Source: Paratractidigestivibacter faecalis
GTDB taxonomy: Bacteria; Actinomycetota; Coriobacteriia; Coriobacteriales; Atopobiaceae
Length of the DNA stretch: 64,000 nucleotides
Direction: 5' to 3'
NCBI RefSeq assembly: GCF_003416765.1
Contig: NZ_QSNG01000001.1
Location: 1,762,742-1,826,741 of the forward strand
Part shown: in pieces, positions 21,633-36,407 of the stretch
Numbering within the stretch: the stretch's first letter is position 1
Layout of the letters: every line of letters begins with the position of its first letter
Notes under the pieces: generated by a model
The model's input: only the letters and a program-made list of their open reading frames with translations
Told to the model about the DNA's origin: nothing
The model's database searches: none
Made by a program: the position numbers and the translations under genes

Positions 21633-22140
21633 ACCGGGCCAAGCGAGACAAGGGGGGGCGGGGTGGATGTCTCATCCGACGAGGCGTCCACCCCGCCACC
21701 TTCACCGGGGGCGGCCAAAAATGGCGGCACGCTGCTGACCTGCGGTTTTCTCGACAGGTCTTGCCGGCGCGTCCAAAACCGCGAACCCAAAACGTTTTTA
21801 TCCCCGGTTAAGCACCCCGTTGGCACCGCAGCGGGCGGCCGCGAGAGATGCGGGGGCGCCCCGGAAGGGCAAAGACGCTGCGCGCCACGTCCTCGAGACG
21901 GGCTTGGCGCTCCCGGCCCTCCCCCGCGCTGGCGCGGCCCAGCGCCGCGTCATCGTCCAGGGCAATGGCAACCAGAAAGATCCTCCCCACCGCCGTGTTC
22001 GGCACGTTCCAGCGCATCCTCGACGTCGTTCTCATGAGAGCCCCTTCTCGCTTCTGGCCTGGCCCAAGCGCCCGGCGCATGGCCCGATGGTCTCCCACGC
22101 CGTGAGATCTCGGTAGGTTACAAACGTCCCAAACTTGGCG
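21633..22140. other. 508-base gap between convergent genes, no supported gene
   Basis: The left part holds an inverted repeat GGCGGGGTGGATG/CGTCCACCCCGCC (21657-21696) that may act as a factor-independent terminator for the DUF362 gene, although there is no U-tract. A minus-strand reading frame from about 22035 to 21808 begins MRTTSRMRWNVPNTAVGRIF. It has no recognised family and only a weak ribosome binding site, so it may be a decayed fragment. Nothing else was supported. Confidence 0.5.
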
Positions 22141-30748: not shown

Positions 30749-30872
30749 GCTACGTTTGCGTTTTGTAGCGGAAGGACGAGTAGCGGCCCAATTTCTAGGC
30801 ACGTTTGCCCAGTTGGCAGAGGTGCAGATTGGGCCGCTACCGGGCGCTCCCGCAATAAAACGCAAACGTAGC
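30749..30872. repeat. Nested inverted-repeat element A (124 bp)
   Basis: The outer arms are GCTACGTTTGCGTTTT (30749-30764) and its exact complement (30857-30872). Inside are perfect 13-bp arms GTAGCGGCCCAAT (30780-30792) and complement (30828-30840), and within those a smaller TGCC/GGCA hairpin. No open reading frame fits. It lies between convergent genes, outside the murE terminator. Confidence 0.7.
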
Positions 30873-34623: not shown

Positions 34624-34790
34624 CCGCTCAGATTTGGCTTCCGCTGGAAGGCGTTTCTGCGCGAAAGGCCCAAAGTGCTTCTCGGCGCTCAAGTTTCGCC
34701 TCCACTGGAGGGCAACTTTGAGCAAACGCACCGAAAACCACCTCGCGCGCAAATACGGCCTCCAGCGGAAGGCTCTTTTGCGCAGATCCC
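34624..34790. repeat. Three tandem hairpin repeats with ~60-bp period
   Basis: Units are centred near 34644, 34705 and 34765. Each has an inner hairpin (CTTCCgctGGAAG, CCTCCactGGAGG, GCCTCCAGCGGAAGGC) bracketed by looser outer arms (GCTCAA/TTGAGC in unit 2, GCGCAAA/TTTTGCGC in unit 3). No coding frame fits. They lie between the paralogue pair and the hairpin hit by the IS element. Confidence 0.65.
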
Positions 34791-34801
34791 AAGGCACACG
34801 C

Positions 34802-34823
34802 CCCTCAAATTGGGGACGTGTTC
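34802..34823. repeat. Left arm of an interrupted 22-bp palindrome
   Basis: It starts CCCTCAAATTGGGGAC and is exactly complementary to 36283-36304, on the other side of the IS element. Without the IS, the arms would flank an 18-base AT-rich loop containing TTTGCGCAAA. Confidence 0.85.
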
Positions 34824-34826
34824 GTT

Positions 34827-36265
34827 GGGGGTGCGGACAATTTCTTAGACACTACGGAGAGAGTACCCCAGGTCCCTGCGGTACTGCTCCGGGCTCCTCC
34901 ACCCCAGGCTCCGCTTGATCCTGCCCGAGTTGTAGTAGGCGAGGTAGCCCGCCAGGCGCCGCCGGAACTCCTCGAAGCCCACCCCGGACCAGTCCCTGCC
35001 GTGGTAGAACTCCTGCTTGAGCCGGCCGAAGAAGCCCTCGGCCGCGGCGTTGTCGGGGCTGCGGCCCTTCCTCGACATGCTGCGCACCAGGCCGTGGCGC
35101 TCGCATATCGCCGCCCAGCCCGGCCACCTGTAGTGGCAGCCGCGGTCGGTGTGGACCACGGGCCGCTCGCCGGCCGCGAGCGTCGAGGCCGCCGCCTCCA
35201 GCATCGAGTCGGCCATGCGGGCGTCGGGGGACTCCGACAGGGTCCACGCCACGACCGCCCCGTCGAAGCAGTCGACCACCGGCGACAGCCAGCAGCGCCC
35301 CGACCCTATCGTGAACATGGTGACGTCGGTGACCCACAGCTCGTTGGGGCGCGAGGCGGAGAAGTCGTGGGTGCCGTCGGGGCGCAGCGGCAGGTTGGGA
35401 GGGGCCTCGGAGACCTCGCCGGCATAGCTGCTCCAGCGCCTGCGGCGCCTCAGGTAGCGCACCTCGAGCCCCTCCTCGCGCATGACGCGCCTCACGACCT
35501 TCTCGGAGACCGCCAGGGGCTCGTCGGGGTCCAGGCGCAGCCTCGCCCATATCGTGCGGTAGCCCCAGGCCCCGCCCCCGGCCTCGAACAGGGCGCGCAC
35601 CCGCGCCCTCAGGGCGGCCAGGCGGTCGGGGGCGCCCCTGCGGGCGCGGTGGTAGTAGTAGGTGCTGCGCGCCACGCCGGCCGCGCGCAGGGCGTCCTCC
35701 AGGCCGAACCCGGGCCTAAGGGCGTCGGCGACCAGCGCCCTCTCCGCCGCCGTCAGCGAGTCCGGGCCCCGCCCCGGGCCGCCTCCTTTTAGGACGTCCA
35801 ACACCGCCTCGGCCCTGGCGAGCTCCAGCCTCAGGGCCCGGTTCTCGGCCCTGAGGGCCTCCAGGTCCCCGGGGTCGGCCGGCGGCGGCACGCGCGGGGC
35901 GCCCCGTCCGTTCGCGAGCGACACCTCGCCCTCCCTCCCCGCGGCGCGGGCCCAGCCGCGCACGGTCTCCGGGTGGCAGCCGATCGACGCGGCGACCTCG
36001 GCGGGGTCCTCCCCGGCGAGCGCCCTGCGCGCGGCGTCGGCCCTCTGGGCAAGAGTATAGGGGGCGTGCCAGCCGACGCCCAGGTCGCCGGACGCCCAGC
36101 GCCTGATCGACTCGGCGGAGGCGAGCCCCGACTCCCTGGCGAACCTGTGGGCCGGCCGGCCGGACTCGCGCCAGAGCCCCAGGATGGCGTCCCTCTCGTC
36201 GCTCGAGTACATTGCGGGCTCCAATCCGGACGCCTGTCGGCGTCCAACTTTTCGTCCGCACCCCC
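34827..36265 (-). mobile_element. IS3-family insertion sequence (1439 bp), complete
   Basis: The ends are imperfect inverted repeats beginning GGGGGTGCGGACAA on the left and ending TTCGTCCGCACCCCC on the right. The 3-bp direct repeat GTT (34824-34826 and 36266-36268) fits an IS3-type target duplication. One intact transposase gene fills the element. The insertion is in the loop of the 22-bp palindrome whose arms are 34802-34823 and 36283-36304. Exact ends were set by the GTT duplication and could shift by a few bases. Confidence 0.85.
34845..36212 (-). CDS. IS3-family transposase (single-frame, DDE integrase core)
   Basis: A 455-residue transposase with two N-terminal helix-turn-helix regions (RFARESGLASAESIRRW and PAEVAASIGCHPETVRGW), a leucine-zipper-like stretch (EALRAENRALRLELARAEAV), an HTH_21 region and an rve core. 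DDE residues are in NELWVTDVTMF (Asp), VVHTDRGCHY (Asp) and DNAAAEGFFGRLKQE (Glu). Many IS3 members need a -1 frameshift between orfA and orfB, but here both parts are one frame. GGAG lies six bases before ATG 36212. Confidence 0.93.
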   Translation of the reverse strand: MYSSDERDAILGLWRESGRPAHRFARESGLASAESIRRWASGDLGVGWHAPYTLAQRADAARRALAGEDPAEVAASIGCHPETVRGWARAAGREGEVSLANGRGAPRVPPPADPGDLEALRAENRALRLELARAEAVLDVLKGGGPGRGPDSLTAAERALVADALRPGFGLEDALRAAGVARSTYYYHRARRGAPDRLAALRARVRALFEAGGGAWGYRTIWARLRLDPDEPLAVSEKVVRRVMREEGLEVRYLRRRRRWSSYAGEVSEAPPNLPLRPDGTHDFSASRPNELWVTDVTMFTIGSGRCWLSPVVDCFDGAVVAWTLSESPDARMADSMLEAAASTLAAGERPVVHTDRGCHYRWPGWAAICERHGLVRSMSRKGRSPDNAAAEGFFGRLKQEFYHGRDWSGVGFEEFRRRLAGYLAYYNSGRIKRSLGWRSPEQYRRDLGYSLRSV

Positions 36266-36282
36266 GTTTTTTGCGCAAATTT

Positions 36283-36304
36283 GAACACGTCCCCAATTTG
36301 AGGG
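36283..36304. repeat. Right arm of the interrupted 22-bp palindrome
   Basis: The exact reverse complement of 34802-34823. It is followed by GCTTTCTTTTTTGG, so the intact structure would have been a strong rightward terminator for the helical-repeat gene pair. Confidence 0.85.
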
Positions 36305-36407
36305 CTTTCTTTTTTGGCTACAGTGCGACCGTGAAAAAGAAAGAAATGGCCTATTTTTTCTTTTTGGTGGCTATACTCTCTCCTAAAAAGAAAAGATTGG
36401 GGACGCT

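Follow-up and report, generated by a model that had tools for sequence, protein, structure and literature searches.

What are the palindromic repeats that stand at nearly regular intervals between two genes of Paratractidigestivibacter faecalis, and which molecule, if any, recognizes them? The organism has a genome of 2.1 Mb (G000 in our numbering) and belongs to the family Atopobiaceae, which takes in Olsenella and Thermophilibacter. The repeats lie in a stretch of 64 kb, which was analyzed as a whole and is referred to as the window in the following. In principle, such units might represent a structured RNA, a REP-like array, or the binding sites of a protein reading phased positions; these are the three possibilities that the initial annotation had raised.

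The three-unit array and its copies in the genome

The array in the window is composed as follows (positions in the window):

34626-34662, no strand: array unit 1, a 37-bp degenerate palindrome, YGCKCA..GCYTCCRSYGGARSGC..TGMGCR (unit consensus including flanks)
34687-34723, no strand: array unit 2, 61 bp after unit 1
34747-34783, no strand: array unit 3, 60 bp after unit 2

The units can be related to one another without gaps, with start-to-start distances of 61 and 60 bp, and the centre of unit 3 (AGC) is the reverse complement of that of unit 1 (GCT). The claim of three related units at a period of about 60 bp is therefore borne out, and the array lies outside both neighbouring genes (picked by their coding bias). 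Compared with dinucleotide shuffles, each unit also folds better than most: the z values on the + strand were -2.1, -2.8, and -2.2 for units 1, 2, and 3, respectively, and 6, 3, and 4 out of 200 shuffles folded as well as the unit.

The whole genome was then probed with R1, a sequence-only model of the unit. The search retrieved 36 units, all of them within 11 arrays (ten of three units and one of six); the best match outside the arrays had an E value of only 0.05, and one unit, at genome position 475939, is interrupted by an insertion sequence. The position of the array outside the neighbouring genes, together with the recurrence of the unit in ten further arrays, excludes chance: the three-unit array is one of eleven scattered copies of a binding-site-like array. 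The 25 start-to-start distances are 61 bp (13 cases), 60 bp (7), and 50 bp (5), so that the class of 60-61 bp and that of 50 bp differ by one helical turn. According to a count by eye, the centre of the first unit is ACT or GCT in nine arrays out of 11 and that of the last unit is AGC in eight, which makes most arrays roughly inverted as a whole. The arrays are about 70% alike, implying that none of them is a recent copy. They are mostly intergenic and stand beside different genes in various orientations, also downstream of the gene described below.

As regards the relatives, a search with the unit sequence gave matches in three of 40 genomes and, on a larger set, in seven of 140, the own genome being counted in both cases; the six other genomes had single weak matches (E 0.003-0.01), so that the unit is not convincingly matched in the 139 other genomes of the family. 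The absence of similar units from relatives, which had been named as a sign against the repeats, thus holds for the exact unit, whereas relatives possess equivalent arrays of other sequence at homologous genes.

A duplex site rather than an RNA hairpin

The initial annotation had described covarying outer arms, with structure rather than sequence being kept. Units of this kind would be transcribed hairpins maintained for their RNA structure, and the somewhat better folding of each unit compared with shuffles is in line with this idea. The 29 ungapped units, however, pair no better than expected: palindromic pairing involves 70.4% of the cells, compared with 71.6% when the partners are shuffled among units, and 427 of 500 partner shuffles pair at least as well. 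The covariation score is 0.127, compared with 0.131 after shuffling; no compensatory change keeping the hairpin was found above the shuffles, and the RNAalifold consensus retains just the three innermost pairs. The two halves of the unit vary independently, most strongly at base 3 of the outer half-site: columns 3 and 35 (mainly G/T versus C/A) are unpaired in 14 of the 29 units.

The claim of covariation consequently did not survive. The pairing of the units stems from a symmetric column composition, as in the binding site of a dimer, and the way in which the half-sites vary is that of a symmetric target of a protein rather than of a conserved stem. Given the lack of covariation above shuffles, a structured RNA was rejected for the array units; the array has no Rfam match, the spacing is quantised in helical turns, and we regard this explanation as very improbable.

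The insertion sequence and a second palindrome family

The palindrome near 34802, previously taken as a fourth unit, belongs to a different dispersed family and has the following surroundings (positions in the window):

34800-34823, + strand: left arm of a second-family doublet (GCCCCTCAAATTGGGGACGTGTTC family)
34829-36266 (ends approximate), - strand: insertion sequence with an rve-type transposase, inside the second-family doublet
36283-36305 (genome 1799024-1799045), - strand: right arm of the doublet, beyond the insertion sequence

The insertion sequence is not part of the array. At least five copies of it are 100% identical (1437-1438 bp compared); four (in the window and in loci L018, L006, and L007) are located at GCCCCTCAAATTGGGGACGTGTTC arms of the second family and the fifth (L015) lies within unit 1 of an own-family array. 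These locations suggest a preference of the insertion sequence for such repeats. Roughly 40 matches to the second family are present in the genome, many of them paired in inverted orientation at distances of about 35 or 100-127 bp (e.g., G000:C1 573081/573195 and 1423161/1423275); no such doublet was seen next to the seven paralogs, in the own genome, of the protein family described in the next section, and the partner gene of the second family may have been lost.

A gene enclosed by two arrays

Two of the 11 arrays enclose one single gene (genome positions):

1619628-1619775: left bracketing array, three units (model R1)
1619988-1621060: bracketed gene, start set by comparison with homologs
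1621088-1621235: right bracketing array, three units (model R1)

No second gene lies between the arrays (1619628-1621235), and hence no toxin gene adjoins the bracketed one; for this reason, a type IV toxin-antitoxin system was rejected at this locus. Neither an intron nor an intein was seen around the gene. Its protein belongs to no family of Pfam, NCBIfam, or PADLOC at cut-off, and three members of the protein family had no match in PADLOC. Six Pfam families matched 28 homologs at E up to 0.1, and the Y1 transposase is absent among them; MTES_1575 REase was weakly matched by nine of the 28 (best E 0.0073). Since no Y1 family is represented and the nuclease domain (see below) resembles EDxHD, the identification of the gene as a RAYT was rejected.

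The protein family is widespread. At E 1e-5, homologs were retrieved from 126 of 140 genomes of the Atopobiaceae, single genomes having as many as 12 matches, and in the order as a whole a profile of the protein family (E 1e-15) matched 160 of 197 genomes. The own genome harbors seven paralogs.

Most homologous genes in Atopobiaceae are bracketed by private repeats

The flanks of six homologs from other species were read, and all had repeats on both sides, with a different sequence each time. Plain palindrome scoring of such flanks turned out to be insensitive and was replaced by two tests: the first looks for an identical word, no shorter than 14 bp, in the 600 bp before and the 600 bp after the gene, the second (a unit finder) for at least three unit copies over both flanks. 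The set was obtained from 66 loci (L056-L121), four of which (L071, L076, L088, and L094) gave no gene by the start-motif rule; from the remaining 62 genes, 15 duplicates and three with flanks shorter than 400 bp were removed, leaving 44 non-redundant genes. These are close homologs and not a random sample, because the loci had been picked as the top hits of one protein or one alignment.

A shared word was found in 35 of the 44 genes, compared with four of 123 windows slid along the 64-kb window and one of 22 shifted windows within the same loci, while the flanks of different genes share a word in 12% of pairs. The unit finder was positive for 40 of the 44, compared with three of 62 window controls. 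When units were sought on both sides with no copy count, 30 of the 62 controls were positive; owing to this weakness, only the criterion of at least three copies was used. The gene at 1619988-1621060 itself fails the exact-word test, its longest shared word being 13 bp because its units are degenerate, and its bracketing rests on R1. In the same genome, repeats can be seen on either side of six of the seven paralogs, with a different sequence for each, and the paralog at 507749 has them only downstream.

The test was extended to 17 further loci, 16 of which could be used (L166 gave no gene by the start-motif rule). All five further Atopobiaceae loci (two of them near-duplicates) were bracketed according to the shared word and three of five according to the unit count. 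Among the homologs from other families of the order (f2, f5, and f6; L159-L171, L168 excepted), only one of 11 was bracketed by the first test and two of 11 by the second. Judging from these sequences, bracketing by private repeats is general in Atopobiaceae homologs; the distant ones being mostly unbracketed, it does not extend to the protein family as a whole and may have been gained later in Atopobiaceae or lost elsewhere.

Each protein has its own repeat, set in helical phase

Those repeats of other family members that were searched are dispersed as well. Copies of the repeat belonging to the paralog at 535311 are present at several further sites of the genome, one of which lies inside the window, and the repeat of the 392880 paralog was retrieved from more than ten. 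In the window, we found (window positions):

30749-30872, no strand: element of the repeat family of the paralog at 535311, CTACGTTTGCGTTTTG ... CGTTTGCCCAGTTGGC ... AAAACGCAAACGTAG
21779-21795, no strand: short match to the repeat of the paralog at 392880, CGAACCCAAAACG, a weak single match (E 3.6 and 6.7)

The former has the same outer-centre-outer plan as in the own array and is located 4 kb upstream of the array. The repeat of the homolog L066, which resides in another genome, was matched there 69 times, on 14 contigs; among seven other genomes, G127 had 17 matches, G100 two, and five none. The copy in G127 adjoins a homolog whose identity to the L066 protein is 68%, and the two repeats, compared by eye, have one half in common and the other half different.

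This, in turn, raises the issue of whether repeat and protein diverge together. Among 40 genes, the repeats match at 15 or more of 20 bases in 11 of 14 ordered pairs with a protein identity of 70-85%, in nine of 36 with 60-70%, and in 50 of 1498 below 60%. For pairs below 85% identity, the rank correlation between repeat and protein similarity is 0.15 (Mantel test, 1/999), small overall because the repeats diverge quickly; part of it may come from loci inherited together.

The spacing of the units is quantised. In 43 homologs other than the own gene (L056 was left out of the 44), the distances between neighbours on the same strand peak at 31, 41-42, and 62 bp (12, 58, and 12 of 117). The phase coherence R of the 117 distances is 0.80 at 10.4 bp, and with one spacing per gene (n = 38) it is 0.75, a value reached by none of 5000 uniform simulations. 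Such spacing points to an oligomer lying on one face of double-stranded DNA. The proposal of binding sites for a phased protein holds as far as the helical phase is concerned; binding itself is addressed below.

The motif CGAGAAG and its complement occur 89 times in the 64-kb window, i.e., 1.39 per kb, about 12 times the estimate from base composition, with a higher density near arrays (3.7 per kb) and in the flanks of homologs (3.1 per kb). The motif being frequent everywhere, no claim of a tie to the insertion of arrays is made.

Arrays turn over between close relatives

The repeat of the homolog L058 forms an element of about 200 bp in two close relatives, with 55 matches in G113 and 31 in G106. 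Fifteen of the G113 copies were fetched, and for nine of them the corresponding site of G106 also carries an array; the other six comprise four sites compared with G106, and, besides, L186 and L200. At the four sites, the following were found in G106: an array of reduced length; 106 bp with a different repeat; about 1.8 kb embedding a complete divergent paralog and its own bracketing repeats, within flanks that are 95% identical over 1446 bp and 78% over 954 bp; and about 1.7 kb with a transposase, IS110-type by our own reading. None of the four represents a clean empty site with a target duplication; they hold other repeats or genes. The comparison of L213:2249-4058 with L190 concerns one and the same intergenic site, with an array in G113 and the full paralog gene with repeats in G106. 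According to these differences, arrays and gene-plus-bracket units come and go at the same intergenic sites, which suggests that arrays and paralog genes share landing sites.

The arrays might also be the debris of mobile elements, moved in trans by another transposase or by recombination, with genes carried between two copies in a composite-like fashion. The own arrays are indeed old and diverged, and the orthologous G106 sites hold several kinds of insert, one of them with a transposase. Passengers, however, would not be expected to show one repeat per protein and a joint divergence of protein and repeat, and we consider this origin improbable.

The predicted structure combines a nuclease-like domain with an AbiEi-like half

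A structure model was built for the homolog L089 from 31 sequences (pLDDT 89.2, pTM 0.88). Foldseek retrieved no PDB match at E 0.001 or better for this model, nor did a sequence-level search of the PDB give a useful match. By structural alignment, residues 180-303 match the catalytic domain of I-Bth0305I (3r3p_A; Z 9.7, rmsd 2.8, 95 aligned residues of 97) and NGO0050 (3hrl; Z 8.7, rmsd 2.6, 93 aligned). In the numbering of the protein at 1619988, E181, D226, and H248 are invariant in 28 of 28 homologs and D257 is present in 27 of 28; their assignment to the EDxHD motif is our own. The best reading of the C-terminal part is that of a predicted EDxHD homing-endonuclease-like domain of the I-Bth0305I/Vsr type. 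Residues 1-175 align with AbiEi over residues 67-195 only (6y8q_A; Z 7.6, rmsd 3.5, 118 aligned), a Z value in the range that the tool describes as a possibly common arrangement, so that an AbiEi-like N-terminal half is suggestive only.

AbiEi-type proteins are autoregulators. This resemblance brings in a further explanation, in which the arrays are operators and the protein is a site-specific DNA-binding regulator or chromosome organizer, controlling its own gene from the brackets and other loci from the dispersed copies, the nuclease being silent or otherwise used and the arrays having spread by recombination. Phased duplex sites in sets of at least three would suit cooperative binding, and the arrays are mostly found between genes. 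Against it stand the arrays downstream of the gene, beside different genes and in various orientations, the conserved catalytic E-D-H-D residues, the turnover of site occupancy between close relatives, and the difference of the repeats even between paralogs of one genome; on balance, operator arrays seem rather unlikely.

Discussion

Set beside the dispersal, the bracketing, the one repeat per protein, the phasing, the conserved catalytic residues, and the array turnover, all obtained directly, the interpretation that we prefer (with a probability of roughly 60%) is that the array is a non-coding dispersed copy of the putative cognate target of the protein at 1619988-1621060, in a partnership like that of REPINs and RAYTs but with an unrelated nuclease. 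The protein would assemble as dimers or higher oligomers on duplex palindromes whose spacing follows the helical phase, with distances of 50 or 60-61 bp in the own arrays and mainly of 31, 41-42, and 62 bp around other homologs. Its nuclease would drive the spread of the array, by copying or by gene conversion, to further intergenic positions. The array would thus be a non-autonomous element, and the gene with its two arrays the parent unit. The parts of this scheme differ in strength: the protein probably binds the arrays; it is likely to be an active nuclease; and the chances that it moves or multiplies the arrays are about even.

The REP/REPIN and RAYT (TnpA-REP) systems, as outlined in one account (PMC3116915), consist of dispersed short palindromes, with inverted sets as the unit and several gene-repeat pairs per genome; the RAYT gene is single-copy and has its own repeat type next to it. 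Another (PMC3733652) gives REP repeats a GTAG or CGTC tag at one end. The arrays described here are likewise dispersed, adjoin a cognate gene, and differ from gene to gene, and to this extent the REP-like option of the initial annotation stands; the hairpin covariation is the part that fell. In contrast to those systems, the predicted nuclease domain is EDxHD-like and not a Y1/HUH transposase, the units are helically phased in sets of at least three, the gene is bracketed on both sides, and no GTAG or CGTC end tag was found in 35 units with flanks, the outer bases being YGCKCA.

The nuclease fold (in the model) and the E-D-H-D residues are shared with the EDxHD homing endonuclease I-Bth0305I, which, according to a review (PMC3943268), dimerizes on a target that is exceptionally long, at nearly 60 bp. 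Homing endonucleases of this type differ in that, here, no intron or intein was seen at the gene examined, many paralogs occur per genome, and the target-like sites flank the gene on both sides and recur elsewhere in dispersed arrays. Apart from the alignment of the N-terminal half, the AbiEi antitoxins of type IV systems are also different: the gene examined has no toxin gene within its brackets, and the AbiEi-like half is joined to a predicted nuclease domain. The 60-bp period of the palindromic repeats recalls CRISPR arrays, whereas the present units are about 70% alike, degenerate, usually three in number, found in 11 places, and spaced in helical phase; near-identical direct repeats with unique spacers are not what we observed, and a CRISPR array was rejected.

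The association of a nuclease with private repeats looks like a previously undescribed partnership, and, as far as we searched the literature, the scattered intergenic repeats of Atopobiaceae were not found described. A wider possibility, to which we give somewhat less than even odds, is that of a second, independently evolved bacterial class of repeat plus nuclease, i.e., a radiating EDxHD homing-type family, represented by as many as a dozen paralogs in one genome. Each paralog would have re-specified its duplex target, which would serve both as gene brackets and as a self-propagating scattered array, read by a phase-measuring oligomer. If true, repeat-nuclease partnerships would have evolved repeatedly, and through recognition of duplex DNA. 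The family would offer dozens of natural protein-target pairs diverging together, as data for learning the re-targeting of a compact nuclease to long sites, and the scattered intergenic repeats of Atopobiaceae would gain a testable partner protein.
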